A stretch of 64,000 nt of DNA from Diplonema papillatum (taxonomy: Eukaryota > Euglenozoa > Diplonemea > Diplonemida > Diplonemidae). The DNA lies in assembly GCA_030068145.1 (NCBI GenBank), contig JAPJBO010000082.1:1-64000 (forward strand). Direction: 5' to 3'. The translations under genes were made by a program, and so were the position numbers. Positions 13,795 through 52,312 of this stretch are shown here, in pieces (positions within the stretch are counted from its first letter, which is position 1; each line of letters starts with the position of its first letter). The notes beneath the pieces are model-generated. The model worked only from the letters and a program-made list of their open reading frames with translations. It was not told the DNA's origin and made no database searches.

Positions 13795-16700
13795 AAATTC
13801 AATTTCAATTTCAATTTCAAAAATTTGGAAACCGCACCCGGGTTAGGCTTGGGGATACGGTGCTAAGGTTCCTTGTGCCTCCTCTTCATCCTTGGGGCGT
13901 TTGTTTGTTTTCTGTTTTCTTTGGTTCGTTCTTGGTATGGTTGTGGGGGGGTTCAGTGGGATTGTTTCTTGCCCGCCCTCCCCTTGTTTCTTGCCGCTGT
14001 TTTGGTAATGATGTCCTGGCGTGCCAGGCTTTACCAGTAGCGGTCGGTGTGTTTCGAGCGATTGCCGTGCTGTCAGTTGCCTGTGATAGTAATTTGTCAA
14101 GAGGATTGCTTTGGTTCGCTGCTGATATGCTGCTTGGCTCTGCGTGTTGTGTGCAGTGATGGTTGTTTTTCCTTGGTTTTGTTGTGGCTTCGTCCTTCGC
14201 TCGCCCTCCCTTTCCGGTGCGGTGTTCTGACGTCTTTTGGTAACCCTGGCGTGCCAGGTTTGCCTGTTGAGTCGGTCTTCCGTGTCGGTCGGGGGGGGTT
14301 TGCTTTCGCTTCGGGACTTTCCTGTTGTTGTCGGGCGCGTGGCGCTGTTTCGCTGCCGCTGCCCGTCCTGCTGCCTTCGCTCTTGTGGGTTGTTGTTGAG
14401 CGTGGTGCGTGTAGCACTGAAACGGGGGGTTATTACGTTGTCTGTTGTTTTGGCAGGACTCGGCTTCTCTTGCGTGCTTGGGGGGGGGGCGTTGTTATTG
14501 GTTCTGGTTTTGTGGGACAAGGTAAGGGAAAGGTATTTCTTTTTCGGCAGTTGGTGGGGGGTATTTTTTGGACTTGTTGTGCGGCTCTCCCTTCCGGGCG
14601 GTGTTCTGACTTCTGTTGGTAAACCCTGGCGTGCCAGGGTTTGCCTGTTGAGTCGGTCCTCCGCTTCGGTCGGGGGGGGCTGGTTTGGTTGCTGCTTGTC
14701 TCTGTTTCGCTTTGCGGCGCTGTTGCGTGGTGCGGTCCGTTGGGCGCTTCGCCTGCCTCTACTTTGTTCTTCCTTCCGGGGCCTTTGAGCTTGCTGCTTG
14801 TCTCTGTTTCGCTTTGCGGCGCTGTTGCGTGGTGCGGTCCGTTGGCCTGGTCGCTTCCGGCAGCGTCAGAAACACCGGGCTGGTGTTTCCGACGCTGTTC
14901 TATCCCGTGCTCATTGTCCGCTCTCGGCCCGGAGGGTTGTCTTTTTTTTGTTTTGGTTGCTAATGCACTGTTCTTGTGTTGCAGCTACCTGTCTGCCTCA
15001 GTGACCGCTCCAGTGCTCACTCTGCGTGGTGCGGTCCGTTGGCCAGGTCGTCTCCGGCAGTCGGAAACACCGGGCTGGTGTTTCTGACGCTGTTCTATCC
15101 CGTGCTCATTGTCCGCTCTCGGCCCGGAGGGTTGTCTTTTTTTGTTTTGGTTGCTAATGCACTGTTCTTGTGTTGCAGCTACCTATCTGCCTCAGTGACC
15201 GCTCCAGTGCTCACTCCACCCTTTTGGACCTTCCTATGGTCAGGTGGGTGTGCTGTCGGTGCACCGAGTCTACCCTTCGTTGGTAGTCGTGTTCGGTCGC
15301 GGCGCTGTTGCGCTGCTGCGGTGGTACTTTTGTTTGCCTTCTTTTTTTCCCCTCTCTTTTCTTATTGTTCTCAGGTGCTGTTCGGTCCGGTGACCGGCTG
15401 CGTCCGTGTCGGCGTGCGGGCTTCGGCTGTTCGTCGGCGCCTGCGTCTCCGTTGTCGTGCTGCCGGTTTACTGCTGCCGCCTTGCGGCGGTTGGTCGGTG
15501 GCCGTGGGGACTGTGTAGTGCCGGGTGTGTGCGTCTGGTGTTGGACTGCGCCGTCAGCGTACTGATTCGCGCTTCGCACTCAGCAGCCCTGTTGCGCCTG
15601 CACCGGCGGTCGGGTGAGGTTGCTTTGCACGGATGTGCCGGGTGTGTTGCCGCCTCAGTCTTCCGACCCGGCCCGAACTATGCCCATCCTTCGGCATCCT
15701 CGGAGCTTGATCCCTCGAGGTCGAAGGTGTTGTCGACGCCATTGGTTGCTGCTGCCGCCATGTTGCCGTCGAGTTCCGGTGTGCCGGGCTCAGGTGGGTC
15801 TTCGTAGACCTCGTACTTCGGCACAAGCCCCACGGCCTGAAGGTACGCGAGGGCTGCTTCAGGGAGCTCGAAGAGCAGCGGCCAAAGCAGCTTGTGCCTT
15901 TCCCTGGGTGTCGGCTTTTCCCTTGGTGTGTCCGGGATGGCCTTGTGGACCCGTCTCCACATGGTCGCTCTCTCGTCGCCCCCGATTCTGCATTCCAGGA
16001 AAAGGTGTGTTAGGGGGCAGATCGGCGTGGCGTCGCAAAGCTGGCATGGGCGGGTTGCTTGCCTCTCTTCTGCTGCGAGATCCATCCAGTCGTCCCGGTA
16101 GCAGTTCCTGAGGAGTTGGTGGTGTCCCGTGCGAAGCTGGCGGATCTCGCGCTCGGCTCGCCTCGTCAGGTGTGCCGTTTTTGGGACCTTCCGTCCTCGG
16201 ACCAACTGCGTGTACGGCAGCGGCCCGCCCGGTTGGTACGGGGATTCCCGCATTGAAGCCGCGTGTAGTGCCTCCCAGGCGTGCTCGCGGTACCGGGCCT
16301 TCGCGGTTCCTACCGTCATCGGCGGCTGCGTTTCTTCTCCGGTCTGCGAGACGCCCTGCTTCGCTAGCCCGTCCGCCTCTTCGTTCCCTGCTAGTCCGCA
16401 GTGGCCGTAGACGAACTGGAGTACTGGTGTATACCCCTTCGCAACCAGTTTCTCGAGCGCCTGCCAGATTCGGACGTTGTCCCGTTCTTGCTGTTTGTGC
16501 GGACCTTGGGACAGCACGTTCAGAAGGGAGCTGGAGTCGCTGAGCACCCAGATGTGTCTGCTGGTAGGCTCTCCTTCGAGTACCTCCCTCTTTCCCAGTT
16601 TCAGCTCCAGCGATTCCAGCGCAATTTTCATCGCCACTTGCTCCGCGCGGTAGCTGGTTGCCCACTTACCGGCCTGACGGCTTAGGCGGGTCCCTTTCAT

Positions 16701-26950: not shown

Positions 26951-29640
26951 ATCGATTTCCTGGCTGGTGACATTTTCCCGCTGGTCCATGTAGCAAACCT
27001 TTTTCGACGAGTTTTTGCTCGTTTTCAGCTCCGATGAAGAGATCCGTGAAAAATAGACCCGGAGACGAAAAACTATGTGCGTGGTTCGGGGCCCTTTACA
27101 AGTTGCAAGGCGCCGGGCGTGGAAGCCGCCAGGTGTGGATTGAGAAGGGTGATTCCCCATTATGCTATTAAAGTTTGCTAATTTCCCCATTATGCTATTA
27201 AAGTGGTGCTAATTTCCCCATTATGCTATTAAAGCTGCTAATTTCCCCATTATGCTATTAAAGTTTGCTAATTTCCCCATTATGCCATTAAAACATTTTT
27301 TTGGGTTTTGGCGGGTTTCCACCCGTTTTCCACAGTTTCCCGCGGCCTCTACCACGAACATGTCCAACCTTTTCGGGAATGGCTTCCCGCAAACCCTTGT
27401 TACGTATGTGAGGATACGGCTAATAGCTTGCTGGTCATGAAATCTTCAGTACACTCCTTCAGGAGTCCTTGGTTGGTCCAAGACATGCAGCATGGCCGAC
27501 GGGAACACGTTCAAACCCGAAGTGCCCGCCCTGGCACTTCGGGTTTGACCCGGCGCCCATCATGGCCACCGCAGCGGCATTCCACTGTATCTGAATCCAC
27601 AACTGTGACAACACAAAACTGGGCTCATGAAATGATGAAAAGCCTCATCAAATTTCCAAATGAGTACCACAAAGGTCCACGCTGCAGTGCAGCCTACAGT
27701 ATGGAAGCGTTGCTTTGCTACAGTGCAGCTGAGACAGTGAGAGCTTAGCTTCGGTGCAGCTGTCTTTAGTCTGCTCCAACTTAGTCTGGTGTCAGATCAC
27801 CAGCTGAGCTGTCAGTGCGAACCCTGCTGACCCCTTTTGGTGAACATGCTGATTGTTTCCCGCGGACCAGCACAGTGCCAAGACGCTGTGAGTCGGAGTC
27901 ACAGTGTGACTTGCAAAGTTAACTGTCCGGTGGAAATAAGCCGTTTTCTCGAAACAATCTACTGACAGTAGGCTAAGTAGCGCCGTCGAATCGATTTCAT
28001 CAAACGACTGCTCGCGTTAGGCACGGTTAGAAAGTGCTTTGTCATTACCTTCCTCGAAAATGGACAAAACTACTCACAAAAAGTCTTGACCAGACTACCT
28101 GTGCTGTACTACGACCGCCAGTAGCCCAGTCGCAGAATGGGGAAATTAGCAAACTTTAATGGCATAGTGGGGAAATTAGCGCCACTTTAATAGCATAATG
28201 GGGAAATTAGCACCACTTTAATAGCATAATGGGGAAATTATCAACTTTAATAGCATAATGGGGAAATTAGCAAAAAACCCCCCCAGAATGGGGAAATTAG
28301 CAGCTTTAATAGCATAATGGGGAAATTAGCAACTTTAATAGCATAATGGGGAAATTAGCAAACTTTAATAGCATGATGGGGAATGTCCCGATTGAGAAGG
28401 ACGGGAATCGATCCCCTGGGTGGTGGCATTTTCCCGCCGGACCACGCGGCAGGCCTTTTTCGACGAATTTTAGCTCGCGATCAGCTGCAATGAAGAGACC
28501 CGTGAAAAGTAGACCCGAAAACGAAAAAGTATGCGCGTGGTTCGTGGTTCCGTGCATGATGCAGGGCACCGGGTGTGGAAACCACCAGGTGGGCATCGAG
28601 CAAGGCGGGTATCGACCCCCTGGTTGGTAACTTTTTCCCGCTGGTCCATGTAGCTGACCTTTTTCGACGATTTTTTGCTCGCAATCAGCTCCGATGAAAA
28701 GAACTGTGAAAAATAGACCCGGAAACGAAAAAGTATGTGCATTGTTCGTGGGTCCGTGCAAGATGCAGGGCACCGGGCGTGGAAACCACCGGTGTGCACT
28801 GGGAAGAACGGGTTTCGATCCCCTGGTTGGCGACATTTTCCCGCTGGTCCACATAGCAGACCTTTTCCGACGAATTTTTGCTTGCGAACAGCTCCGATGA
28901 AGAGATCCGTGAAAAATAGACCCGGAGACAGAAAACTATGTGCGTGGTCAGTAGTTTTTACAATTTGCAGGGCACCGGGCGTAGAAACCACCAGCCTGAT
29001 CAGGTGTGCATTGAACACGGACGGTATCGATCCCCTGGCTGGTGGCATTCTGTTGCTGGTCCGCGTAGCAGACCTTTGTCGACAAAGTTTTGCTCGCGAT
29101 CAGCTTCGATGAAGAGATCCGTGAAAAATAGACCCGGGAATCAAACACTACGTGCGTGGTCCGTGGGTTCTTACAGGATGCAGAGCACCGGGCTTGGAAA
29201 CCACCCGGTGTGCATTGAGCAGGACGGGTATCGATCCCCTGGTGGTGGCATTATGTTGCTGGTTCACGCAGCAGACCTTTTTCGACGACTTTTTGCTCGC
29301 GATCAGCTCTGATGAAGAGATCCGTGAAAAATAGACCAGGGACCATCCAGTATGTGCGTGGTTCGGGGGTCCTTACAAGATGCAGGCACCGGGCGTGGAA
29401 ACCACACCAGGTTTGCAGTGGGAAGGACAGGAATCGATCCCTGGCTGGTGACATTTCTTGGCTGGTCCACCGTGACTCCACGTGGCAGAGGAGACTTTTT
29501 TCGAATTCCTGCTCGCGATCAGCTCCGATGCGAGAAATGGACCCGGAAATGAAAAGGATTGTTTGTGGTGCGTCGGGTTTTCCCCCAGGCCCTACGATTC
29601 AAGCCTACCAGCATTGTTAGCAGAGACTGCCAGAGTGCAG
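26951..29640 (+). repeat. Satellite of ~205-bp unit, seven copies
   Basis: The anchor ATCGAT (or variant) before CCCCTGG recurs at 26951, 28406, 28611, 28814, 29026, 29230 and 29433. Spacing is 203-212 bp once the inner element is removed. The units share GGAAACCACC, a TTTTTCGACGA stretch and GAAAAATAGACC. Reading frames in it are repetitive and not coding. Confidence 0.85.
27149..28389. mobile_element. Inner MULE-like element with tandem-repeat arms and 11-bp target duplication
   Basis: Target duplication GATTGAGAAGG lies at 27138-27148 and 28390-28400. Removing the element plus one duplication restores a 203-bp satellite period, confirming the insertion. Both arms are ~30-bp repeats, TTTCCCCATTATGCTATTA on the left (27149-27295) and its inverse on the right (28137-28385). 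A 15-bp-arm hairpin lies at about 27510-27546 (AAACCCGAAGTGCC and inverse). No transposase. Long duplication size and long arms suggest a Mutator-like family, by inference. Confidence 0.75.
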
Positions 29641-35889: not shown

Positions 35890-36540
35890 TACTTTTCACA
35901 AAAATGTGAAAAACAACGGCCGTGTTGTCTCGTGCTGTGCTGCGTCTTCGCGCCACAACCCGCAACGCAACTCCGCAGACAAGGGAAATCCCAATCCCAC
36001 ATTATCCACGTCATCCTGGTGGCGAACTCGTCGATGAGCAAAAGGCGGTTTTCGCCTCTGCAGCCTGAACTCCAGGCGGCATGCAAAAAATTGCAACATG
36101 CTCGTAGTTGGGCAAACGAAAGATGCTCGTGAATGGGCATAAAGTTGTAAGCAAGACTGCGGTGATACAACAATCCGGAACACGGTCGGTATCCGTCGTT
36201 GTTCACACATAGCAACGTGAATTTGTGCAGTGCTTGCATTGCTGAAAAGTTAGCGTGTTGAGTTTATTTACTGGCTGTCAGCTCGCTGTCACAAAGCTTC
36301 TCCGCGACAACTGTTCTGTCCACGGGCTACAGAATGCCTACGAGGCACGTTTTTTTGGGAGAAAACTGGACTGGATAATTTCTTTTAGGTAGCGGTCCTC
36401 CATGGGATGCAGAGCCAAATTAAAATGTACCCCCCAGCCTCGGACAAAACTCCACACTCTCTTGACGAAGACTTTAGCATACCAGGGCATGGTTAGGCAG
36501 GATTCTGCCAAAACATCAAACTAAGATTGCTCCCCCAAAT
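35890..36540. other. Gene-free stretch; one copy of a dispersed 65-bp motif
   Basis: No gene supported. 36466-36531 carries GACGAAGACTTTAGCAT and GCAGGATTCTGCC and CTAAGATT. It resembles 41386-41455 and 45971-46045 (the last in dynein intron 1). Confidence 0.5.
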
Positions 36541-36564
36541 CAATCATGCACACACAGTGGACCG

Positions 36565-37263
36565 GTGGCCAGCGGCAGGCCTGAGTCTCTGCCCGGCGAA
36601 TACAGAAGGGATACGTCGTTGCCGGCAGTTTGCAGCGAGCTCGGCGAGCCTGCTTGTAAGTCTCCGACGGGATGGTGTGCCGGCAGGACGAGTTGCGTGC
36701 CGTCGCTGGAGGAACGGGCGAAGAGGTTCGCGGACCTGGTGGCGGGGCCGCCGCCGCCCGAGTTCTGCGACGTGCGCCCGCCGAGCAGGCTCTCCCAGCC
36801 GGCCAGCGACCCCGGCCGGGACCCTGCGCCCCGGTCTGCCTCCAACGTCGGCGAGTGCCCCCCGGCGCTCGAGGCGCGGCTGGAGCGGCACGAGGCGTCG
36901 GACCGCTCCCGGATCGCGGACAGCGAATGCGCGGCTTGGATCGCGCTGGTCGGCGACATCGTGTCGAGGGCCCGGGCGGCCCCCTTTTCGTTCTCGCGCG
37001 GCGCCGCGCGGCGGCTGCCGACCTTCGTGACGCCGGCGGCGTTCGCGGAAAATCCGCCGTCGTGCCCCGACAATCTGCCGGTCTTCAACAACGCGCGGCC
37101 CGTCTACAACCCGAGGCCGCAGTTCGTCACGCCGGCGTCCTTCCGGGACAGTCCGGACCTGCCTCCTGCATCCCTCCCGCCGTCTCAACCACCGTCGCCC
37201 AGGCAATGGGTCCGCGTTCAAGCTGAAAACGGCATTGAAGGGGTGCAGTGGGTGAAGCGATGA
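36565..37263 (+). CDS. Hypothetical GC-rich ORF ending in a minisatellite
   Basis: Not recognised. The ORF is 232 residues. The middle has dynein-like G/C third positions and a duplicated motif FVTPAAFAENPPS / FVTPASFRDSPDL about 30 residues apart, separated by Asn/Pro-rich sequence. The frame ends inside the first unit of a 102-bp minisatellite, whose sequence supplies its last ~22 residues and the TGA. The 5' codons are less convincing than those after about 36680. It may be an exon. The minus strand is also open through the minisatellite, because 102 is a multiple of three. Confidence 0.35.
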   Translation: MASGRPESLPGEYRRDTSLPAVCSELGEPACKSPTGWCAGRTSCVPSLEERAKRFADLVAGPPPPEFCDVRPPSRLSQPASDPGRDPAPRSASNVGECPPALEARLERHEASDRSRIADSECAAWIALVGDIVSRARAAPFSFSRGAARRLPTFVTPAAFAENPPSCPDNLPVFNNARPVYNPRPQFVTPASFRDSPDLPPASLPPSQPPSPRQWVRVQAENGIEGVQWVKR

Positions 37264-37645
37264 AATGACCCCCCGTGTGTGTCGTCCGTCCCACCGTCGC
37301 CCAGGCAATAGGCCCGCGTTCAAGCTGAAAACGGCATTGAAGGGGTGCAGTGGGTGAAGCGATGAAATGACCCCCCGTGTGTGTCGTCCGTCCCACCGTC
37401 GCCCAGGCAATAGGCCCGCGTTCAAGCTGAAAACGGCATTGAAGGGGTGCAGTGGGTGAAGCGATGAAATGACATCCCGTGTGTGTCGTCCGTCCCACCG
37501 TCGCCCAGGCAATAGGCCCGCGTTCAAGCTGAAAACGGCATTGAAGGGGTGCAGTGGGTGAAGCGATGAAATGACCCCCCGTGTGTGTCGTCCGTCCCAC
37601 CGTCGCCCAGGCAATAGGCCCGCGTTCAAGCTGAAAACGGCATTC
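37198..37645 (+). repeat. Minisatellite of exactly 102 bp, about 4.4 copies
   Basis: AGGCAAT starts units at 37201, 37303, 37405, 37507 and 37609, exactly 102 bp apart. A degenerate, shortened relative (GTCGCCCAGGCAA, GCAGTGGGTGAAGAGATGAAA, CCCCCCGTGTGTGTC) lies at 41518-41600. Confidence 0.95.
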
Positions 37646-38159
37646 GGGGGATTGAAATGGTGAAGGGAACCCGCCACCCCTCCCCCCTTTTTACCCCTGC
37701 AAACCCGTGAATAGGTGCTACGGGAGTATCTGGCAACCGCTGCTTAATATGCATGCTAATCCATGGGGTTCACAAATGGTCGACCTTGACGACGCAATGG
37801 CAGGTGACGACGTCATCCGATAACCTGGCCTTCGAGGCAGTGCATGTTAATCCACGTGGTTCATGTACTTAAAAGAACTCAATGCTTAACAGTGCTCACG
37901 TGGGCGGTGTCTTCGGACAGCACCTCGTGATGTTCGCATCACAAAACAAAGAAGACGGTGAAATTGTCGTTACCTGGTCGGGTTTCGCTCACGACCGTTT
38001 CCTGAACAATCCTTCACTACATCCGCGGTTAAATAACCTGGCCACAGTAATGCAAGCACCACGCGCTCTTCAAACCCAAGAAACATTCCCCCCCCCCCGG
38101 CAATCGCTGCAGCATGGTGTCCTTTCTCGAACAAGGATCTGCGAGGCATGCCCCAACCC

Positions 38160-40060
38160 GGCGGTTCTCGATAATCTCATGGTGAGCGACCGCCTGAAAC
38201 CACCGTTGGCACACTCCTGTGCAACTTCACCGAGGTCAGCTACGAGACGCACCAACCGACAAACACCGAGGCGACCTGTCCGTGCAAACAACACATACAG
38301 ACTAGTCACCTAGACGGACACGCTCTGGGGCTAGCAACGGACCTGAAGACAGACGAGGCCCTTTTGTCACTTTTCCGCAAGGGACGAAAGTACCGAGTAG
38401 CCAGCAGCCCTATGTCACTCTACGATTCGATGCGGTTCGACGTCGAAGAGTTCGTTACCAATAACTTTAGGAAGTCAAGCGAGAGCGAGAAATCGCATTT
38501 TGCAGCAACACTGACAGAAGAGTTCGACACCGTTCTTGGAACGCTCAACGCACACACGGACGAGCCGCACCTCCGAGATGCCCTGCGGACGCTGAAGAAA
38601 CTGCAAGAACACCTTGTCATTCTTCCTGTAGACAAAACTGCACACGATTTCGGTTTCATCTGCAAGGAAAAGTACAAGGAACTCATTCGAAAAGAGCTAC
38701 ACCAAAGCTCAGCCTACAAACATGTTGACACCTCGATGGCAGACATTCTCCAGCAACACCAAACCTTCAACAAGTCCCACAACTTCACCCACTCCAACAT
38801 CCTGCCATATCTATATGGTACTCCGAAGCTACACAAACCCGAGCCTCGGATGCGGTACATTGCCGGCGTTTCAGAGAAGGGAAACGCGGAGAAAACGGAC
38901 GAAAAGCTGAAAGATTTCCCAACAAGAAGCAACCGAAGACGCGCGCCTCAACAACACCAGCCCACCAAGAGACATCGGGCATCCTAAAACTGGTTCTAGC
39001 CACACTGCAAGGCAAGGACGAAGCGTCTCGGGCAAAGACGGGGATACGTCGCTTCTTCGTCGTCGAATCAATGACGGCGTAGCCGTTCACATTAAGACAA
39101 ACTACGCACGGCTACGCCAGAAGGTCCCACGTACATTCGATTTCAAAGAAATGTACACAAAGATTCCGCAACAGCGAATTGTAGAGTACGTCATGCTCGC
39201 TGTGTCGGAAGCATTCGAGTACGCGAAGGCGGAACGTGGTTGTGCCCTGAAGGCACGACAGTCGAAGCAGCAGTTCGAGTTCAGCAATGCTGACACGATG
39301 GACGGGACAGCATACAACGTCGAGGAGATCCGGGAATTGGTCGAGTTCGTTGTCGGCAACATGTTTGTGACGAACGGTGGTCAATGTTACCAGCAGGTAA
39401 CTGGAATTCCAATGGGCGGTACCGCAAGCCCAGTATTACTACTGGTGTGAATAGCTTTACATCGATAGCCTGATCACGGAAGGACGCCATGAAGAAGCCA
39501 GAGCCCACGCCGACAGCGTCAGGTTTATTGATGATTTCCTGACTTGGAGTGCACGACCACCACAGGAAACAATCTACGGCTAGTGGGGCGACCGGATACT
39601 CCTCGGAGAGATGGTCCCTGCACTCTAACTCGTCTCTCTCTCTCTCTACGGGCATGGAGTATTCGGAAACGTCGAAAGACGTTGACGTCGTAGTCTTCTT
39701 GGGAATGCGCGTTAGAGTTGAGAGGGGTAACAAAGCCAACTTCATCCGACTCTCCGTTCTGGACACGGGTGAAGAGTTTCCATGGTACCCCCATCAAATA
39801 CACGCATGCCGAGTCGACGGTTCCGCGAAACACCGGAACCTCGATATTCAAAGGTGCCCTGATACGAGCAGCCCGCATCTGCAACAACATGCCTGATCTC
39901 AAAGTCGAGACAATGAAGGTGTACTACAGATTGCGAGATCGTGGGTTCTCCGGACGTGAACTTCGACACACGTTCGATGCTTTTGTCGTGCAGACATGCG
40001 GCAAGTACGAACTGGACGCACGGGTGCTGACAGTTTTACCACTATGTTGGGAAAGCCTAT
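38160..40060 (+). pseudogene. Decayed Penelope-like (PLE-type) reverse transcriptase
   Basis: Retroelement RT in at least five frame-shifted pieces, same strand. About 38250-38400: CPCK, then HALGLATDLKTDEALLSLF and KGRKYR, as in the N-terminal block of Penelope-like RTs. 38560-38900: LPVDKTAHDFGFICKEKY and PYLYGTPKLHKP. 39076-39440: FDFKEMYTKIPQ and YQQVTGIPMGGTASP. About 39510-39545: the catalytic FIDDFLTW. 39690-39790: VVFLGMRVRVERG and YPHQ. 39790-39960: ALIRAARIC and RGFSGRELR (thumb). No GIY-YIG endonuclease is visible. Frameshifts occur near 38890, 39070, 39450 and 39590-39780, with a stop after GIPMGGTASP. Assignment rests on motif order and not on an alignment. Confidence 0.7.
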
Positions 40061-40195
40061 GACGAAGAACGAAGAAAAGCCGTACATCAACACCCGGCAG
40101 CCGAACCGACCCACCTCCCCACCACATCAGACGCCCAACCCGCCCGAGCCCGAAAACACCACAACGACGGTCTCGCCCTCAAACGAACCAACAGG

Positions 40196-41062
40196 TTCTC
40201 CCAAACGCAACCGCAACGGCATCACCAACGTTCGCAACACGTGCTTCTTTGCCGCCAGCGTCCAATTTCTGGCACGCAAACGAAACTTCCGGAACCAACT
40301 CGAAACTATCGAGCGTCCGGATGAAGAACAGTTGGAAATCTGTCGACTTTTCACGGATTTTGATGCTGGCCGTGACATCCACGGTTCGATGACAGCAATT
40401 CGAAGTCTCGTTTCGGCACAACCGAGAACGACGCTGAACACCGTGATGCCCACGAACTGCTGACATGGATGAGAAGCTGCGTGAGGGGGGATAACAACGA
40501 CCCAACGATGGTGACATACTCACGACGAACCACCTGTAAAGTATGTCAGGAGACCTCGACAGCGGTGCCGGTCTTAGAACCATTTTTCCTTGTAGAGCTC
40601 AAGAACAGGGAGAACTCCTACACCGAGACGGTTGAAGCTCTTGTAAACAAAGTAAAGAACAAGAGAGCAGCCGATGTCGACCTCGACTGTACAACATGCC
40701 GAAAAAAGACGGTAGGCTCCTCGAAAGAGATCTATGCCTTTCCAAGTGTGACGGACGTGGCACTGAAACGAGCCCAACGGTCGAAGAGGACGGGCGAGGA
40801 GATAAAAAAGAAAGCCCGCAATCCAATCAACCATTGGGATTGGCGAAGACACGTACATGGTGACGGGTTTCATAATCCACACTGGAAAAGTACATGCTGG
40901 GCACTATTACACCATCATGAAAGAAGCAGACGAATGGGTGTGTTATGACGACCAGCAAGTATCAGTGCTCTCATGGGAAGCATGTGCCGGAAAGTTCGTT
41001 TCGAACGGTTACATCGTCTCCCTTGAGAAGATACAAACACTTTCACTCAGTGGAAGCAGTGC
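40196..41062 (+). pseudogene. Decayed ubiquitin-specific protease (USP, peptidase C19) domain
   Basis: A deubiquitinase-like domain with all landmarks in order but split by two frameshifts. Cys box NGITNVRNTCFFAASVQFL at about 40215-40275. DAHELLTWM, matching the USP QQDAHEFL block, at about 40445-40475 in a second frame. Two zinc-finger pairs, CKVC and CTTC, at about 40540 and 40690, then FPSVTDVALKR. Back in the first frame, the His box GKVHAGHYYTIM with YDDQQVSVLSWE and GYIVSL at about 40878-41030. The frame changes lie near 40430 and 40830. At about 285 residues it is a compact USP. It starts ~130 bases after the RT thumb, joined by a Pro/Thr-rich, linker-like stretch, which suggests but does not prove one retroelement polyprotein. 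Confidence 0.7.
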
Positions 41063-41659
41063 CCAGTGGCGGTTGGTTACGAGCCACAACCCAAACCAGA
41101 ACCCCCTTTTTATTAATCTGACGAAGGAAGGATGCGATACCTGGTATACATTGGAACCAGAAAGTTGTGATAGCACCGAAACAGCCGAAAGTCCCCGTCC
41201 AAAGGACCCACTGAAGAGCTCTAACTTTGGATTGGTGTGCGTTCAAGATCGAAACCAGAGACAAAGAACGAGGTGCACAAAACACCGCGGTGAAAAAAGA
41301 ATAAAGAGGAATAGTCCCTCAAGGTTCCAGCTCCCTGCGACCCTTTTCCCCTTTCCCCTATTTTATTTTACACTATCTTCGACGAAGACTTGATGCTAGC
41401 ATCAAACATGCATGCGAGACAGTGTTCTGCCTCAACATTAAACTAAGTTTTCCGTGTGCGTGCTACGGTCTTGTATTCATTCATCTTCTTCGGGGACTTC
41501 GGGTGCCTCCCGCCGTGTCAACCAGTCGCCCAGGCAACGACATCGAAGCGGCGCAGTGGGTGAAGAGATGAAAGTGCACCCCCCGTGTGTGTCACATTCA
41601 AGTTTTTCCCTTTTGAGGGCGGCTCGGATCTCCTGACAGACAGTCGGTAGACTGTCTAC

Positions 41660-42030: not shown

Positions 42031-42815
42031 TCAAGTGCCAGTGTACGAGCTTGCATTGGTGCAGGATGATGCGACGGTGGAAGGCCGGCCGCCAATTACG
42101 TTTGAGTCCGATTAGTATCGCTGGAACAACAGCTTCTTTGAACAGCACAACACAAACCGGACGAACCATAGCCATCGGCATCCTATGCAAACATGGTCAC
42201 AGCTCACTCTTTCAACTGCCCTGTAGGCGTGTTCCGTAGTGTGTTGCATGCTCCTGGATCAAGCAAGTTTACAGTGTCGCGCTTTTCAAGCAGGGCCACT
42301 GGTTGTCCATCTACCAAAGTGTCAACCTGCGTTCTTCTTATAGGTGGTGGCGGGGTGGGGGGGGAGGAGGGATAACGAACAAAAGGTGGATTCACGATGT
42401 CGTCAAGTGCCAGCGCACGAGCTTGTATTGGTGCAGGATGATGCGACGGTGGAAGGCCGCCGCCAAATACGCCTGAGTACGGTTGGAATCGCTGGGTCAA
42501 CAGCTTTTTTTGCACAGAGCAACACCAAACCGGACGAACCGTGGCCATCGTTGTCCTATGCAAACATTGTCGCAGCTCGCTCTTTGAACTGCCGTGTGGG
42601 CGTTTTCTGTAGTGTGTTGCATACTCCTGGATCAAACAAGTTTACATTCTGTAGTGTGTTGCATGCTCCTGGATCAAGCAAGTTTACAATGTCGCGCTTT
42701 TCAAGCAGGGCCACTGGTTGTCCATCAAAGTGTCAACCTGCGTTTTTCTTATAGGTGGTGGCGGGGTGGGGGGGAGGAGGGATACACGAACAAAAGGTGG
42801 ATTCACGATGTCGCA
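42031..42815 (+). repeat. Tandem duplication of the dynein 5' flank including the start codon
   Basis: Copy A 42031-42402 and copy B 42403 to about 42815 begin TCAAGTGCCAG and run to GGATTCACGATGTCG. Copy B has an extra internal ~43-bp duplication (42607-42649 and 42650-42690, GTAGTGTGTTGCATRCTCCTGG). The real dynein ATG is 42808-42810 in copy B. The matching ATG in copy A (42397-42399) opens a 14-codon frame ending at TGA. Confidence 0.9.
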
Positions 42816-45792
42816 AGGCAGCATCGCCGGTATGCTGCAGGCCTTGAGCCGAGCGGCCGACAACCTGTTGCGGAGCCGTGAGATCAACGCCGTGAAATCG
42901 GATAATAGCACCGATGAAGTGTTTGAGTATGAGTGGAACAAGCCGAACGCATCGGCTGACAGCTGCGTGCAGCTGGTGGAGAGACTGGTGGGCGGCCTTG
43001 TGAAAGACCTCAAGTCATCAGACTCACACAAGGTGCTGCACGCGCAGGAAGACGCGACAGGCGTAGAGCTCGACTTCGCGTCCGGGTACCGCCAGGAGAC
43101 CTTCCAATCGTTCATGGAGAAGGCCATGCACGAAAAGTTCTCTTCCGAACACGTGACGTTTCCGAACGACCAGAACACGAAGCTCGTCCTGCAAAAGCTG
43201 CTTGATGCATACGTCGACCAGTTCAACTCCCCCACGTTCATTGTCGACTTCCCCGGCATCCTCTCCGGCGACGGAGAAAAGGAAGGCAAGAGGATCGATC
43301 TGATCATCCTCAAAAAACGGGTGGTCTCAGTCCTCATTGTCGACGCCACAGTCACCCTCAAGCTTCGCGCCGCTGACCTGGCGAGGATCCTTGTGAACCT
43401 CACGGACATGTCCGAGGTCGAGCAGCTGCTGCCGAACGAGTGGCCGGGACTTGAAGAAATCGCAGACGCCCTCGAGATCATCCAGGACAAGGTGAACGAC
43501 TGGTACCGAGGCCGGGGGCTGTCGGAGAGGAAGGCGGCGTACGTGTTGAGCACCATCGGGACGAGGCTGGCAGAGTACTTGAAGTCCCGCCTGGACACCG
43601 AAACCGAGCTGAAGGAGCCGATGGTTTGGAAGGGCCCGTACGTGACCGTCAAGCAGATGCTCGAGCTGGCCATCGGGGCCTGCGAAAAGTGGATGCACGT
43701 GACGCGCACTCTGACGAGCGTTGACTGGCACGAGTGGCAAGGGGGCCCGCACGTGGACCCCACCATTCTGGCGCTGTCGAAGCGCCTCGAAGAGATACTG
43801 CGGCTGCGCAGCACCTTCGACCAACTCGCCCAGCTTCTGACCAAGCAGGAGCTGACCGAGATGAAGAAGAAGATCGACGCCGCGTTCGACGTCTTCACCA
43901 ACCTGCAGCCCTTCGATTTGGAGGTTACCGACGCGGCCACGTGGAGCCGCGCCGTGAAGCAATTCGAGCAGCGCTTGGAACCTGTCGAACAGAGGTCCGC
44001 CGGCCGGTTGCGGCAAGAGCTCGGGAAGGTGTCGACCAACGCGCAGGCGCTGCTGCAAGGGTTCATCCGGTTCAACGATATCGTCAAGCGGCCGATGATC
44101 GGCGCGGAGCTGACCAGCGAGCGGGACAACCTGCTCGCGAAGCTTTCGGAGAGGGTGAACGGGCTCAAGTCGGAGTTCGAGGCCAAGTACCGAAAGGACG
44201 ACTTGGGCGCCTCCGAGCTCGACGACCGGCGGCTGCAGGCGGGCCGGAACATGCCCGTGGTCGTCAACAGCCTGATCTGGGCGCGGCAGCTCCGGCAGAA
44301 AATCGAGCACGTGCACTCTTCCGGGTCGTCGCTGCTCTCCGACTTGACGCGGTTCGAGCAGTTCAGCCTGATGTGCAACGGGCTGCTCACGGAGCTCAAG
44401 GACTACGAGTCGGAGACGTTCGGGACTTGGATCAGCGAAATCCAGGAGAGCATAGGACACGTGACGCGCGACTCGTCGTCTTTAACGCTGCGGATGGAAG
44501 GGAAGATCATGGAAATCTCGAAACGAGACGGCAGGCTGATCGTGAACTTCAGCGAGCGCCTGGTTGAGCTGGTCAGGGAGGTCCGCCAGCTGATCGCCCT
44601 GGGCTACGCGGTGCCGGCGGCTATCCAGAAGGTGGCGCAGGACGCCCTCCGCTTCTACCGGAACGCGACGGTTTTGAAGCAGGTTGCCAACTTCTACAAC
44701 ACGCTCTCCGGCAACCTGATCCCGTGCACGATCACCCTCTTGGAAAAGCCGATCACGCACTTCGAGAACGTGGTCAAAGGGAAAGGCTCGAAGTCTCAGA
44801 TTTCCTGGGGGGACAAGAGCGAAGCCGACCAGTACACCATGAAGCTCAAGGACGCCGCCGAGATCCTTACGAAGGAGAACCGAAAGCTGCGGAGAGTCCA
44901 CGACGACTTCATCGTGCTGGTCAAGCAGTTGATGGACATCGACCTCGTCAAGAACATCGACAAATGGAAGGTCGTGCTGAAGGAAATGCGGTCAAAATTC
45001 ACCGACCTCGAACGAAACGGCTACAAGGCCACCGGGCCGTGGAAGCGGCACTGGGACCACCAGCTGTACAAAGCCCTTGAGTACCAGTACCTTCAAGGGC
45101 TCGAAACGCTGAACGAGTCGCTGCCGGATATGCCGATCAACCTGTGCTTCAAACAGGGGCAGATCGTGTTCGACCCGGTGTTCGAAAAGGTGCGGGAGCA
45201 CTACTACAAGAACATCCGCGACTTCATCGCGATTCCCGTGTCGTTCAAGGGGGTAGGGGACGCCGAGGTGTTCAAGGCCATGGCCGAGAGAAACGAAGCC
45301 GGAATCGAGACTGTGTTCTTGAAGACGGAGGGGCTGTTTTCGCGGCTCGGGAAGGTGAAGAGAAAGTACAAGGAGTACGTGATGCTCGGGCTGGTGGACT
45401 TGGAGCAGTGGGTCGAGCTGCTGTCGGAAGTTTCGGACTGGGAGAAGAACTTCAAGATGATCAAGGCGAAAGGGAAGGAAATCGGCGCCCTGGAGGACAG
45501 CATCCGGATCGACTGCTTCATCATCTCCACCATCCCCATCAAAGCCGCCATCGACGATCAGCTCTCCCGCCTCGGACAGCTCCTGAACCACTCCCTGAAG
45601 AAGTCAGCTGAAAAGCACCTGCTTGGAATCGAAACATTCCTCACCGAAGGCATCGCGAAGCTAAACGAAAGTCCGACGACCCTTGAGGACATCGGCCGCG
45701 CCAACAAAGCGTACCAAGAGATGAAGGACCAGCAGGAGCCCATGCAGCGCCTCATGAAGCAGTTCGACGAGAAAAGCAATCTGTACAAAAAG
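42808..45792 (+). CDS. DYNC2H1: Cytoplasmic dynein 2 heavy chain, exon 1 (N-terminal tail)
   Basis: Encodes residues 1-995 of the IFT retrograde motor that returns cargo from the ciliary tip. The start is the ATG in copy B of the duplicated flank. From about residue 200 the protein is collinear with known dynein-2 tails: RLEEILRLRSTFDQL, a FNDIVKRP block matching KYKELVKRP of other species, REVRQLIALGYAVPAAIQ, WKRHWDHQLYKALEYQY and INLCFKQGQ. The first ~195 residues are not clearly alignable by eye, yet total length up to the first P-loop (residue 1665) is close to that of other species, so no upstream exon need be missing. The exon ends AAG|GTATCA, phase 0. Confidence 0.92.
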
Positions 45793-46075
45793 GTATCAAA
45801 AACTTTTTCGTCTCCGGCCAGGGCCACAGTCATCGCGAATCTGTTCGTTCTAAGCACGTTCTTGCGATCCCCTCCCGAGAAAGAAGTACTCCTCTACGGC
45901 ACCGCAGAGTCCGAAATCACCACGAAAAAAAGAAGCGGAAAACAAACGAAAACAAAACACCGCACCCGCGAAGAAGACTTGATGCTAACGCCAAGTACCC
46001 AAAAGGAGCAGGATTCTGCCCAAACACCGACCTAAGATTCTTCCCCCCGCCACCATCTCTCAACAACCAACGCAG
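45793..46075 (+). other. Dynein intron 1
   Basis: 283 bp, GTATCA...CGCAG, phase 0. Its 3' part (45971-46045) is a copy of the dispersed motif also present at 36466 and 41386, with GAAGACTTGATGCTAACGCC and GGATTCTGCC and CTAAGATT. The CTAAC and CTAAG in it could serve as branch-point sequence. Confidence 0.85.
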
Positions 46076-49000
46076 GTGTCGGGAGCCACGCTGGATGGCA
46101 CCGCAGTGCGATCGAAGCTCGGCGCGTTCGATGACCTGCTGAAAGCGCACGAGCAGATGATGGAAGAGCAGATCGCGCGCCTCCGCAACGAAGTGTCGCG
46201 CGACATCGAAAAGTACTTCGCGGAGCTCGACGGGTTCTGCGTGCTGTGGAAGGAGCAGAAGCCGAAGGACATGTCCGCTCTGAAGGACCACGCGGCCATC
46301 TCCGCAGCCCTGCAGTTCATCAAAGACCGGCAAGCAGAGCTCGACGACCTCGCGCAGCGCGGCAAGTCAGTCATCGACCAGTGCCAGTACTTCAAGCTCG
46401 AAGAGCCGGACATGGGCAAGCTCAAAGACGTCAAAGAAGACGTGCAAAGCCTCACCTCCGTCTGGGCACTGTACGAAGGCTTCGTGGGCGAGGTCGACGA
46501 GTTCAAAGAGGAAAATTGGTTCGCCTTCCGGTCGAAGGCGTTCAAGTTCGAAGACTTCGTGCGCGACTGGAAGGAGAAGCTGAAGGAAAAGCCAACGAAC
46601 GACGTCGTGATCTACATCCGCAGCAAGCTCGACTCGTGGACGAACATGCTGCCCCTCTTGAAGTTCTGCAGGGGAGACGGCATGACCATGGACCATTGGA
46701 CGGAGATGTTCCGATTTTTGGACGTCGACCGACACGAGGTTAAACCCGAAAAGCTGACCTTCGGACACTTCATCGATCGGTCGGACGTCATCTGCAGCCG
46801 GGAGAAGGACTTGAAAGGCCTGCACGCCCGCGCGCAAGGCGAGATTCAGATCCGAGAGGCCCTCGCCGAAGTCCGCGCCTGGGCGCACGAAGCTGAGTTC
46901 AACCTGGTGAAGGGTGGCAAGAGTTCTCTGATCAAAGACTGGAAGGAGCTGCTCACGCAGGTCAGCGACAACCAGTCGTTGCTCGGGTCGCTCAAGGACT
47001 CGCCTTACTACCAAGGGTTCTCCGGCGAGGCGTCGTCGTGGGAGCAGAAGTTCGTCGCGCTCGATGAGTACCTGCACCTTCTGATGCAGATCCAGCGTAA
47101 ATGGGTGTACTTGGAGCCCATTTTCGCCCGCGGGGCGCTGCCGGCAGAGCAGCCCCGGTTCCGGAGGGTCGACAAGACATTCCAAGAGATCATGCGGGAC
47201 ATTGATGCGGACGCCCGGGTCATCGAGCTCTCGAAGCGGGACCTGGGCTCGTCGTTGAAGTCGATCCTCGAGCAGCTCGACCGCTGCCAGAAGGCGCTGA
47301 ACGAGTACCTTGAGCAGAAGCGAGATCGGTTCCCGCGGTTCTACTTTATTGGCGACGACGACCTGCTCGAGATCCTCGGCCAGTCGCAGAACCCGGTGGT
47401 CATCCAGAACCACTTGAAAAAGTTGTTCTCCGGGATCAGCCGCGTCGAATTCGACGACAGCAAGCAGAAGATCCGATCCATCGTGTCGTCCGACGGGGAG
47501 ATCGTCCCGCTGGTGAACGAGGTGACCGTGTCCGCGGAGGTCGAATCGTGGCTGTCCCTCCTTGACCAGGAGATGCGCAACACCCTCGTCGACATGCTCT
47601 GGGGCTGCGTCAAGGAAAACGACCTCTTCAAGTTCCCCTCGCAGCTGCTCTGTCTCTCCGAGTTGATTCACTGGACGCAGAAGGCGCATTTGGCCATCAA
47701 GCAGCGCCGGCTCCCCGAGCTGCGGGAATCGTTGAACGAGCGCCTCCGCGCGTACACCCGGTCGAAGAACGAGGCGGAGGGCATCGTGTCCGTGCTGAAG
47801 ATGAAGGCGCTGATCATGGACCTGATCCATTCAATCGACGTCATCGACCAGCTGATCGCGTGCAACGTCAAGACCGAGCTCGACTGGGCTTGGCAAAAAC
47901 AGCTCCGCTTCTACCTAAAAGAAGAAGCGACGCCTTGCAAAGTGCACATGGTAAACGCGTCGTTCGTCTACACATTCGAGTACCAAGGCAACGCACCGAA
48001 GCTCGTGCACACGCCTTTGACGGACAAGTGCTACCTCACGCTGACGCAAGGCATGCACTTAGGGTACGGAGGAAACCCGTACGGGCCCGCGGGAACCGGG
48101 AAGACCGAGTCGGTGAAGGCGCTAGGGAACGCGTTGGGGCGGCAGGTGCTGGTGTTCAATTGCGACGAGGGGATCGACTTCAAGTCGATGGGGCGGATCT
48201 TCGTCGGGCTCGTCAAGTGCGGCGCGTGGGGCTGCTTCGACGAGTTCAACCGGCTGAAGGAGGACCAGCTGTCGGCGATCTCGCAGATGATCCAGGTCAT
48301 CCAGGCAGCCATCAAGAACAAGGAGTCCGCCTGCGAACTGCTCAACCGCACCATCGACGTGAACCATAACGCCGGGATATTCGTCACGTTGAACCCCGCG
48401 GGCAAGGGATACGGTGGGCGCTCGAAGCTGCCGGACAACTTGAAGCAGCTATTCAGGGCCGTCGCTATGTCGGTACCCGACATCCGTTTGATCGCTGAGA
48501 CCATCCTGCTCAGCGAAGGATTCGCGCACGCGACCCCGATCAGCAAGAAAATCGTCACCGCGTTCAAACTGTCCAAGCAGCTTCTCTCGGCGCAGCAGCA
48601 CTATGATTGGGGGCTCCGGGCGATCAAAACGTGCCTGTCGCTCTGCGGGAACCTCATCACGAAGTGGAACAAGGCGAACGAAGGGGTGGAGCAGACCGTC
48701 GAAATGGAAGAAGGCCTCGTGATCCAATCCCTCCGCGTCAACACGCTCTCGAAACTCGCCTTCGACGACACGCGGCTGTTCAACGGGCTCATCGCGGACA
48801 TTTTCCCCGGGATTCCGGTCCACGAGATCGAGTACGAGGAGCTGCTCCCGGCGATCAACGAGGCCATCGCGGAGGCGAAGCTGCAGAGGATCGACGGACA
48901 GGTCCGGAAGGTCCTGCAGCTGTATGAGGCGCTGCGGCAGCGGATGGGGGTCGTCATCGTGGGGCCCAGCGGGTCGGGCAAGAGCACGCTGCTGGCCATG

Positions 49001-52000
49001 CTGCGGTCAGCCCTCGAGAAGCTGAAGATCGTGGTGCCCCTGCACGTCATGAACCCGAAGGCCATGCCGCGCCATCAGCTCCTCGGCAACATGGACGTCG
49101 ACACGCGCGAATGGATGGACGGCGTCCTCACCGCCGCAGCCCGCAAAGTGGTCAAGGAGCCGACCGACGGAACCGTCCAGTCGTGGATCCTCTGCGACGG
49201 GGACGTCGACCCGGAATGGGTCGAGTCGTTGAACTCAGTGCTCGACGACAACAAGCTGTTGACCATGCCCAACGGCGAGCGTATCCAGTTCGGTTCGAAC
49301 GTCAACTTCATCTTCGAAACGCACTCGTTGACCTACGCGTCTCCCGCTACTGTTTCCCGGGTCGGGATGATCTTCCTCAGCGAGGAAGATGTCGACCCGC
49401 AGTCTGCAGTCGACACTTGGGTGACGAAGCAGGCGGACTCTGCGAACCCGCAGCTCGGACAGTGGTTGAATGACTTCTTCTACAAAGCGGTGCAAATGGT
49501 CCTTGACCTCGGTCACACCCTCTCCGTGCAGACCACGCGCATGGCCATCGTCCAGACCGGGCTCAGCCACCTCGTCGGCGTGCAGTCGAAGGCGGATTTC
49601 ACGATCGGCCTCATCCGCGGGCTCGGCTCGCTGCTGTACAAAACCGAGCGGGAGGACTACGCTCGGAACATCTTCGACCTGACCGGGGAGAGGTCCCCGC
49701 GGGGGAACTTGCTGGATTGCTACACGGTGGACGGGCGGTACGTCGTGTACGAATTCGACCGCGGGTTGCAGAACCTGGCCCTCGAAGACGTCAAATCCGG
49801 GGCGATGGTTCAGACGGTCGACGTGCAGAGGAACTTCGCGATCCTCCGCCCGTGGCTCACGCAGGGCACGACGCGGCCGTTCCTTCTGGTGGGCCCGGAG
49901 GGGTGCGGGAAGTCGAGCTCCGTTATGGCGATGCTCGAGGGGACGAAGGGCGTAAAAACCGCGGTCATCCACTGCTCCGCGCAGACCGAAGGCACGCACA
50001 TCCAGCAGAAGCTGCAGCAGATGTGCACGCGGCTGTCCACCGCCGAGGGCCCTGCCCTCCGCCCGAAGGAGTGCGAGCGGCTAGTTCTGCTGCTCAAGGA
50101 CATCAACCTGCCGAAGCCCGACGAGTACGGCACGGTACAGGTCCACTCGTTCCTGCAGCAGATCATCCTGTACAATGGGTTCTACGACAAGGACCTCGAG
50201 TGGATCCGCGTCGAAAACGTGCAAGTCGTCTGCACCATGAACCCGTCAGGCTCCGTCGGCAGGTACGACTTGGCCCCCCGGTTCGTCGCGATCATCTCGG
50301 TCCTCTCCATGTCGTACCCTGACAAGGAAAGTTTGACCTTCATCTTCACGGAGTTCCTCCAGACGCTCCTGCAGTCCGCGCAGCTTGAGAAAACCAGCGG
50401 CGGTTGGTCGAGCGGGAAAGGGTCCGACCTGGCGAAGGTGATGGTCAACGTGTACGAGGAGGTCAAGCGGAAGTGGACCGTCGACGACTCGTCGCACTAC
50501 GTCTTCAATCCTCGGGACATCACGGCGTGGATCCTCAACCTGCTCCGTTACGACCTCGAGAACAACGATCTCGCCGAGGTCGTGTACTACGAGGGCCAAC
50601 GCGTGTTCGCCGATCGTTTGACGAAAACCGACTACCGGCGCCGGGTGGCGGAGTTGATCTCCGAGCAGCTCTCGAGCACCGTCGGCTGGCGGAAGGAAGG
50701 GGGCGAGAAGTTCTTCACCTCGTGGCTCTCCCGCGGGCTCCTCCAGGCGATCGAGCCGCGCGACTACAAGAAGCACGTCAACCAGACGCTGCTGATGCAC
50801 GAGCGTGAGATCAAGCCTTTGGACATCGTTGTCCTCCCGGAGATGCTGGGTTGGATCGCACGGGCCGACCGAGTCCTCTCCTCCGACGGGGGCTCCATGC
50901 TGCTGTGCGGCCGGTCCGGCGTCGGGAGGAGGGAAGTCGTCTCGCTCTGCGCGTACGCGCTGCGCATGCAGATCTTCGAGCTCAAGGTCGCGAAGAACTA
51001 CGGGCTGCGCGAGTTCACGACCGAGCTCAAGACAGTGCTGACCGCCGCCGGCGTCCAAGGGCAGCACTCGCTGCTGCTCGTGGAGGACCACAACATCGTC
51101 AGCAGCTCGTTCCTCGAGATCATCAACTCCCTCCTCGCCGGCGGAGAGTCGCCCGGGCTGTTCACGCCCGAGGAGCTCGAGCCCCTGCTCGCCCCGCTGA
51201 AGGAAGAAGCCTCGAACGAAGGCTACTTCGGCGGCGTCTACAACTTCTTCGTGACGCGGGTCCGGAAGTTCCTGCACATCGCGGTGTCGATGGACCCGAC
51301 GAATCCGTTATACGAGTACCGCTGCCAGTCGAACCCGTCCCTGTACACGAAGGCGCAGGTCCTTTGGATGGGGACGTGGAGCAGCAGCGGCATGAAGCGC
51401 GTGCCCGAAATGATCCTCAAGGACATCGTCCGCGACCTGCAAGGGGAGAAGGACAAGGACAAGGACAAGGCCGAAAAACCCGACGACAACGGGAAGGTCA
51501 ACGGTGCGAACGGCCCCATCTCCCCGCGGCCCCCGAACGTCAGCTTCGATCTGCCCGTCGAGGCGCTGCTGCTCCACAACGGCGTCGGCGAGCAGGGGAC
51601 CCCGCGGATCTTCAGGTACCTGCTCGACAACTTCAAGCGGATTTGGAACGAGAAAGTGACCGCCTGCGACGAAATGCGGTCGAGGCTCATCAACGGTCTC
51701 GCGAAGCTGCAAGAGGCGGAGCTCAACGTCGACATGCTGAAAAAGGACGCGGAGGAGAAGAAGACGAAGAGCAGCAAGAAGCAGAAGGAGGCGGACGCCG
51801 CGCTGACCGAGATCCAGGAGAGGATGGAGGAGGCGAAGGGGACTAAAACGGTCACCGAGGACCAGAAGAAGACCCTCGGGAAGGAGCAGAAGGAGAACGC
51901 GAAGCGGAAGGCGCAAATCGAGCAAGAAATCGCGCACATCGAGCCGGTCCTCGCCTCCGCCCGCGAGGCCGTCGGCAGCATCCGCCCGGAGCACCTGACC

Positions 52001-52312
52001 GAGATGAGGGCGATGCCCACTCCTCCTCCGGCCATCAAGGACGTCATGGAGGGAGTCATGAGATTGATGGACTACCGCGAGACCGGCGGCGACGCGATGA
52101 AGAAGTTCCTCGGCCAGCGGGGCGTCAAGGAGCGCATCATCAACCTCGACGCGCGTGACATCCGGCCCGAGATCCGCGAAAACGTGTCGAAGCTCATGTC
52201 GCAGAAGCCGCTCTCCTTCAAGCACGAGACCATCGTCCACGCGTCGCAAGCCGCCGCCCCGCTGGCCGCGTGGGTACGCGCGCAGATCGAATACTCGACC
52301 GTGCTCGAAAAG
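46076..52312 (+). CDS. DYNC2H1: Cytoplasmic dynein 2 heavy chain, exon 2 (linker, AAA1-AAA4, stalk helix 1, microtubule-binding domain)
   Basis: A single 2,079-codon exon, residues 996-3074. The linker region includes RGALPAEQPRFRRVD and FPRFYFIGDDDLLEILGQS. Four Walker A motifs: AAA1 GPAGTGKT (48083-48106, residue 1665), AAA2 GPSGSGKS (48962-48985), AAA3 GPEGCGKS (49892-49915), and AAA4 GRSGVGRR (50909-50932), whose lysine is replaced by Arg as in other dynein-2 chains. AAA1 Walker B is CFDEFNR. A Lys/Asp-rich insert (GEKDKDKDK) lies near 51450. The coiled-coil stalk helix 1 spans about 51660-51960. The microtubule-binding region leads to AAAPLAAWVRAQIEYSTVLEK at the exon end. AAA1 to AAA3 are competent for nucleotide binding. 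The exon is flanked by CGCAG|GTG and AAG|GCATGC. Confidence 0.96.

Follow-up and report, generated by a model that had tools for sequence, protein, structure and literature searches.

The window analysed here is a 64,000-nucleotide stretch of Diplonema papillatum DNA, which forms the start of contig 82 (JAPJBO010000082.1) of a 271-Mb eukaryotic assembly; the same assembly was searched for related copies. On its forward strand lies a broken copy of a Penelope-like element (PLE), a retrotransposon, in which a PLE-type reverse transcriptase (RT) is followed by a ubiquitin-specific protease (USP) domain. An earlier note on this DNA had placed a decayed PLE-type RT, a Pro/Thr-rich linker and a decayed but complete USP domain at 38160..41062. 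Every block it named is visible in a three-frame view of 37641-41400 (+), where RT blocks, Pro/Thr-rich linker and USP blocks follow one another, broken by frameshifts. The place was right and the limits slightly narrow: blastn against an intact copy (L034), together with the terminal repeat, gives a span of 38098..41453 (+). The features of this copy are listed below (EN, endonuclease; ORF, open reading frame; aa, amino acids).

38098..41453, + strand: EN-RT-USP Penelope-like element, 5'-truncated and frameshifted; intact copies of the same family have an ORF of 1448 aa
38116..40032, + strand: PLE-type RT with thumb, broken across several frames (three-frame view; tblastn of intact ORFs)
40037..40217, + strand: Pro/Thr-rich linker between RT and USP, limits approximate, in the USP frame (three-frame view; 98.0% identity to the L034 linker)
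40218..41036, + strand: USP (peptidase C19, UCH) domain with Cys box, two CxxC pairs and His/Asp box (Pfam UCH; 96.9% identity to the intact copy; solved USPs)
41366..41453, + strand: terminal direct repeat, equal to the element's first 88 bp at 94% (comparison with the element ends)

The window copy is 96.2% identical to L034 over 38098-39580 and 93.2% identical (gaps counted) over 39645-41441. It begins at 38098 through 5' truncation, so the endonuclease part is absent; at the other side, 41441 is the element end and 12 more terminal-repeat bases lead to 41453. The RT is represented by the pieces LYGTPKLHKPEPRMRYIAG, TFDFKEMYTKIP, QVTGIPMGG.ASP, FIDDFL and the thumb, and the USP by GITNVRNTCFF (Cys box), RDAHELL, TCKVC with CTTC, and AGHYYTIMKEADEWVCYDD (His/Asp box). 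Pfam recognizes UCH in two separate window frames, with E 5.5e-9 in the His-box frame (over the cut-off) and 0.0025 in the Cys-box frame (under it); the same scan detected no RT family in the window RT frames. When the USP is read through, with X at the frame joins, it matches solved USPs, the best being USP15 (E 1.2e-7).

The earlier note had also judged RT and USP to be damaged to a similar extent, and a count against L034 agrees. The RT (98.0% nucleotide identity, 1877 aligned bases) has seven frameshifting indels and one nonsense codon, the USP (96.9%, 819 bases) has two and none, and the linker, again at 98.0%, has one and none. The RT thumb and the USP sit in different frames. The window feature is a dead, 5'-truncated PLE copy, and its deubiquitinase is no stray host gene.

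Intact copies and their domain architecture

In the intact copies read whole, a single ORF of 1448-1585 aa encodes an N-terminal GIY-YIG endonuclease, a PLE-type RT, a linker and a C-terminal USP. These ORFs bear out the suggestion that RT and USP form one element, a retroelement with its own deubiquitinase. The further assumption of a standard PLE did not hold, since the endonuclease is N-terminal.

In all five intact ORFs scanned with Pfam, GIY-YIG is found toward the N-terminus and UCH at the C-terminal end, with E values of 9e-16 to 5.7e-23 for UCH and 5.3e-6 to 3.1e-4 for GIY-YIG. The latter lies at residues about 165-393, ahead of the RT, and scores 21.4-27.1 bits, the Pfam cut-off of 22.6 being reached in three of the five. 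GIY-YIG is also found in three of four further ORFs, at 27.0-27.5 bits; of the remaining one, L038, the sequence retrieved did not include the N-terminus. UCH has E 7.3e-14 in L041 and 3e-20 in L038, both above the Pfam cut-off, and its profile yields 52-82 bits against a cut-off of 23.9 in all seven USP ORFs scanned.

A genome search with PF00443 gave 149 scored matches (of 935 candidates). One repeat kind, with matches of ~800 bp inside ORFs of up to ~1585 aa, was judged to account for 112 of them, and the remaining 37 were dropped as host genes or other types. With the window USP piece as query, 151 matches were obtained (150 scored of 928 candidates; the list may overlap with the PF00443 one). 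They comprise the piece itself, a single relative at 84%, a large family with 92-94% identity and ORFs of up to 1448 aa (one of 1475), and further families down to ~55%. Annotators should be cautious here, as what is labelled "USP gene families" may, in a genome like this one, consist of copies of a transposon.

Element lineages and the OTU protease

The GIY-YIG search also gave ORFs of 2210, 1457 and 1544 aa. The 2210-aa ORF, 1967 aa of which were fetched, has the order EN-RT-USP and a Cys/His finger at its C-terminus (UCH E 7.3e-14). A similar finger is present in the 1457-aa and 1544-aa ORFs, where the order is EN-RT-OTU. The OTU domain is recognized in L042 and L043 with E 2e-5 and 1e-8, that is, 25.5 and 36.2 bits against a Pfam cut-off of 23.3. 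Its motifs are GDGNC or GNGNC plus a C-terminal His, one OTU family thus having Asn within the GDGNC motif. In the family with the 1544-aa ORF, seven of eight EN-OTU pairs share a spacing of 2778 bp. USP and OTU are both papain-like (clan CA) proteases.

An RT tree of ten families divides them into four deep groups, with RT identities of 32-38% between groups. The OTU pair forms one group (lineage D) with support 100/100; the order among the groups is unsure because the branches are long. The USP is present in three deep RT lineages, and the OTU protease takes the same place in the fourth. RT copies without a USP had been named beforehand as a sign of chance adjacency; in the ten families fetched, all sharing the RT motif blocks, a deubiquitinase-type domain follows the RT in every case.

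Searching the genome for OTU produced 150 scored matches from 656 candidates; many of these lie in long repeat ORFs, with families of 1938-1972 aa. The OTU ORFs of 1966 and 1972 aa were considered as PLEs and set aside, as by eye they look like long interspersed nuclear elements (LINEs). One LINE-like element of this genome, at L045 1124-7000 (-), has an N-terminal OTU domain.

Recurrence, mobility and element ends

Recurrence of RT and USP at equal spacing, proposed in the earlier note as a check, was looked for with a clade B RT query. With 68 of 665 candidates scored, it gave 70 rows, of which two were dropped as second pieces of loci already included, leaving 68 RT loci. Among the matches listed, 53 of the 68 RT loci have a UCH match 3' on the same strand, at 363-369 bp in 52 loci and at 630 bp in one. 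From the endonuclease side, 150 of 225 candidates were scored, of which 63 rows were assigned to the window's clade, and 87 were dropped as other families or cellular genes. A USP match within 8 kb 3' accompanies 45 of the 63, 41 of them at 2706-2733 bp (again among the matches listed).

Near-identical copies at different places or in tandem count for mobility of the element. On the L033 contig, three USP matches lie 5726 bp apart, forming a head-to-tail array of 5726-bp units. L034 has 5802 bp in common with this array at 99.97%, and beyond it only further terminal-repeat copies match. L010 and L012 share 5904 bp at 99.8% and nothing else; L009 and L011 share 5689 bp at 99.97%, plus short flank repeats and an older related piece.

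A direct repeat of 76 bp stands in identical form at the two ends of L034, and across copies the terminal repeat measures 76-92 bp. The terminal repeat of L036 is similar to that of L034 by eye, and related clade A families have similar termini. Clade A element ends run into C-rich stretches. No hammerhead ribozyme family, a motif that some but not all PLEs have in their terminal repeat, was found at E<=1 in seven element loci.

Two observations concern clade B surroundings. At about 7669-8456 of L011, the sequence flanking the clade B element on its 3' side corresponds to the USP portion of a different clade B family, as a nested or head-to-tail insertion. A eukaryotic large-subunit ribosomal RNA stretch occupies L010 1-1215 (-), ~1.9 kb from a clade B element.

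Membership in the Penelope-like elements

Two traits of PLEs are present in these elements: GIY-YIG and RT in a single ORF, and tandem copies with terminal direct repeats, so-called pseudo-LTRs (LTR, long terminal repeat). The C-terminal GIY-YIG of canonical Penelope/Poseidon elements is absent, since GIY-YIG precedes the RT. An AlphaFold model of the RT (pLDDT, a per-residue confidence score, of 51.9) was compared with known structures by Foldseek, and the ten best matches are all telomerase RTs (E 2.8e-3 to 7e-2). This likeness of the model is weak and in the direction expected for a PLE, a common ancestor of PLE RTs and telomerase RTs being assumed according to an excerpt of PMC5718144. No match was obtained for the RT among PDB sequences, and three scans of viral contigs gave no relatives.

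Selection, fold and origin of the USP domain

The catalytic Cys/His/Asp(Asn) motifs are kept in all eight USP families, the third catalytic residue of L041 being Asn, and a six-row USP alignment has invariant C10, H232, D247 and D248. Ratios of nonsynonymous to synonymous divergence (omega) were computed by the Nei-Gojobori method. With synonymous sites near saturation in most pairs and clade A versus clade B estimates unusable, USP omega is 0.096-0.249 within clade A, 0.138 within clade B, and up to 0.255 over all pairs tested. Elsewhere in the ORF, omega is 0.051-0.113 for the RT, 0.034-0.118 for the endonuclease and 0.17-0.52 for the linker. Codon bootstraps of three pairs gave a USP omega of 1 or more in 0 of 1000 replicates each, and the value of 0.255 falls to 0.211 without the C-terminal tail. 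By these estimates the USP is under purifying selection that is weaker than that on the RT and, in the least saturated pairs, no different from that on the linker. Omega of the OTU pair was not computable because its synonymous sites are saturated.

Synonymous divergence (dS) is uneven along the ORF: in L033, L035, L036 and L037, excluding the close pair L035/L037, dS is 0.42-0.63 in the first ~247 codons versus 1.3-1.9 in the RT. This lower N-terminal dS among clade A families suggests recombination, or constraint on the RNA there.

The low-confidence AlphaFold model of the USP has 343 Foldseek matches in the PDB at E<=1e-3, and the best 50 consist entirely of USPs and complexes containing them (best E 1.4e-10; TM-scores by query length of 0.41-0.63 for the top matches). 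The SAGA Ubp8 chromatin module is one of these many USPs. A host USP gene matching this copy had been named as another sign of chance adjacency; the six host USPs compared match only distantly, in local pieces of 21-46% identity (best E 4e-10). In a tree of eight host and six element USPs, host and element sequences part at a branch with support 72/74, long branches being involved.

Interpretation and alternative explanations

The locus is very probably derived from a PLE retrotransposon whose polyprotein runs from GIY-YIG through RT and linker to a deubiquitinase-type protease, the USP being a part of the element. The element protein would bind its own RNA, nick target DNA with its endonuclease and prime reverse transcription there. 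Its C-terminal cysteine protease would then remove ubiquitin or a ubiquitin-like tag from nearby proteins. The likeliest substrate may be the element's own ribonucleoprotein, which would be spared from the proteasome, followed by ubiquitinated chromatin or repair proteins at the target. Because two deubiquitinase families, USP and OTU, fill the same place, the shared need seems to be ubiquitin removal itself, with no one specific partner. The intact copies suggest that a mobile element must remove ubiquitin from something if it is to spread.

Several observations weigh against this reading. Among the matches listed, 15 of the 68 RT rows have no USP partner; 14 of these 15 have ORFs of at least 1067 aa, and the one that was fetched (C94, that is, L038) has a USP. 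Likewise, 18 of the 63 EN rows have no USP partner among the matches listed. Eight of these 18 have a 609-aa ORF, and they were rejected as counter-examples, given the one fetched (L047) is 3'-truncated inside the RT and is missing the RT core too. As for the RT, its model is of low confidence and has no Foldseek match at E 1e-3 or below, and Pfam RVT_1 recognizes it in only three of nine ORFs, two of them among the first five, with E 0.04-0.1. As for the USP, the model (six sequences) has a mean pLDDT of 59, and in the two least saturated pairs omega is close to that of the linker (0.249 and 0.255 versus 0.279 and 0.285). Between clades A and B, the USPs are just 20-25% identical and the RTs 34-37%, and the USP tree seems to decide for neither one nor two captures, one capture being allowed.

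Beside the truncated copy L047, at 3996-5501 (+), lies a frame of 502 aa in which a P-loop-like motif is seen by eye.

That a dead PLE came by chance to lie beside a dead host USP retrocopy or gene is an explanation to which we assign a negligible probability. The different frames of RT thumb and USP agree with it, in the window copy alone, yet the junction recurs at fixed spacing in many copies and in intact ORFs, the window linker is 98.0% identical to that of an intact copy, and six host USPs have no close match; the intact copies rule it out. It is unlikely, though far less so, that the cysteine protease is a polyprotein processing enzyme or a structural or binding module rather than a deubiquitinase. 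Its location at the end of a multidomain polyprotein would suit such a role, as would the Asn in the GDGNC motif of one OTU family and a constraint on the USP that, in the least saturated pairs, does not exceed that on the linker. Against this, USPs and OTUs are ubiquitin or ubiquitin-like hydrolases, the catalytic motifs are kept in eight of eight USP families, and two deubiquitinase families occupy the slot.

Granted that the domain is a deubiquitinase belonging to the PLE, it may instead act on the host, on ubiquitinated histones, the clamp or repair factors at the nick, so that insertion is completed or silencing is escaped. This remains a minority view among our expectations. It is in line with the DNA repair role that Bao et al. 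(2010) proposed for the OTU/Ulp1 domains of DNA transposons (an excerpt of PMC2836005), and the USP model does match the SAGA Ubp8 chromatin module. However, Ubp8 is one of many USPs matched, which makes the fold matches unspecific, and no given substrate is indicated by the sequence. A different matter is whether PLE lineages captured USPs on two or more separate occasions, or once in an ancestor with OTU replacing the USP later in lineage D. Separate captures are somewhat short of an even chance in our estimate. The lower clade A to clade B identity of the USP relative to the RT would fit them, as would the pairwise comparison with six host USPs, in which clade A USPs are about as weakly similar to the host sequences as to the USPs of clade B; the tree branch that sets the host USPs apart from all six element USPs speaks for the single capture.

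We see about an even chance for a stronger claim, namely that this PLE lineage depends on a self-encoded deubiquitinase, with USP and OTU interchangeable at the C-terminus and ubiquitin removal a required step of the life cycle. If the element-encoded deubiquitinase acts as proposed, a little-understood class of eukaryotic retroelements would be linked to the ubiquitin system. With intact copies in high number and either of two deubiquitinase families in a single slot, these elements offer a direct test of the proposed role. In the excerpt of PMC2836005, the role of ubiquitin/SUMO hydrolases in DNA transposons is proposed and apparently not tested.

Comparison with known systems

Chlamys PLEs, described by Craig et al. 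in 2021, are reportedly permuted, with GIY-YIG N-terminal. By that account, the present elements are like Chlamys-type PLEs in having GIY-YIG N-terminal to a PLE-type RT in one ORF, and differ in the USP or OTU after the RT. Chlamys PLEs are reported from Ectocarpus and stramenopiles in PMC12477816, the main text of which has no occurrence of "ubiquitin" or "OTU".

With canonical Penelope/Poseidon elements, as presented in excerpts of PMC11167929 and PMC3846280, the present elements share GIY-YIG and RT in one ORF, terminal direct repeats and 5' truncations; the same excerpts report tandem or partial-tandem PLE copies with pseudo-LTRs. They differ from the canonical elements in the N-terminal endonuclease, the extra C-terminal deubiquitinase-type domain, the lack of a hammerhead at E<=1 and the size of the ORF, usually 800-900 aa in those elements and 1448 aa and more here.

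The likeness to hydrolase-bearing DNA transposons lies in a ubiquitin/SUMO hydrolase fused to a mobility protein, one of those hydrolases being USP-type, and the difference is that the present elements are retroelements. The Helitron2 element Helinoto is said to have three deubiquitinase-like domains. According to an excerpt of PMC2836005, hydrolases occur in Ginger1 (OTU or Ulp1), Helitrons (OTU) and Mutator (Ulp1), and a Trichomonas vaginalis transposase is joined to peptidase C19. The LINEs of the present genome (L045) are also alike, as retroelement polyproteins with an OTU cysteine protease, and differ in a LINE-type RT with RNase H (by eye) and in the N-terminal position of the OTU.

No title on a PLE with USP or OTU was found among the open-access papers searched, and an earlier description in Craig et al. 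2021 or in Repbase is possible. PLEs and deubiquitinase or protease terms are unconnected in the excerpts of PMC5718144, PMC3482391, PMC7599744 and PMC12910113.

Surroundings of the element in the window

The neighbourhood is eukaryotic, with a dynein heavy chain gene from ~42.8 kb and, preceding the element, a LINE-type ORF and an astacin-type protease ORF. Three further PLE fragments lie in the window:

14480..14544, - strand: fragment from the 3' end of a clade B element (matches the end of the L009 element at 83% across 66 bp, E 4e-12)
36454..36541, + strand: solo terminal-repeat remnant of a related PLE (74-76% to the L034/L036 termini)
45877..46052, + strand: short 3'-end fragment of a related PLE, consisting of 3' untranslated region and terminal repeat (matches the L035/L037 3' ends)

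The remnant at 36454..36541 aligns to the copy at 41.4 kb with a score above those of all 200 dinucleotide shuffles. The fragment at 45877..46052 bridges the end of the dynein ORF 42655-46035, in which dynein domains were found, and the start of the next long ORF, 45989-52396. Judging from the change of frame, this fragment is probably inside an intron.

Direct repeats at 37173-37644 precede the element, with a 102-bp minisatellite of 4.5 copies at 37189-37644, and one related copy follows just after it at 41506-41593. The copies on the two sides are 84-91% alike in pieces, and each ends an open frame in QWVKR-stop. These repeats were considered as the element's own flanks and rejected, given the element ends at 41441-41453 and they lie outside it. 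Farther upstream, ~30-bp repeats form arrays that face each other as inverted pairs, two such pairs being present at 20063-22133 and 27153-28383; the arrangement resembles the termini of non-autonomous DNA transposons.

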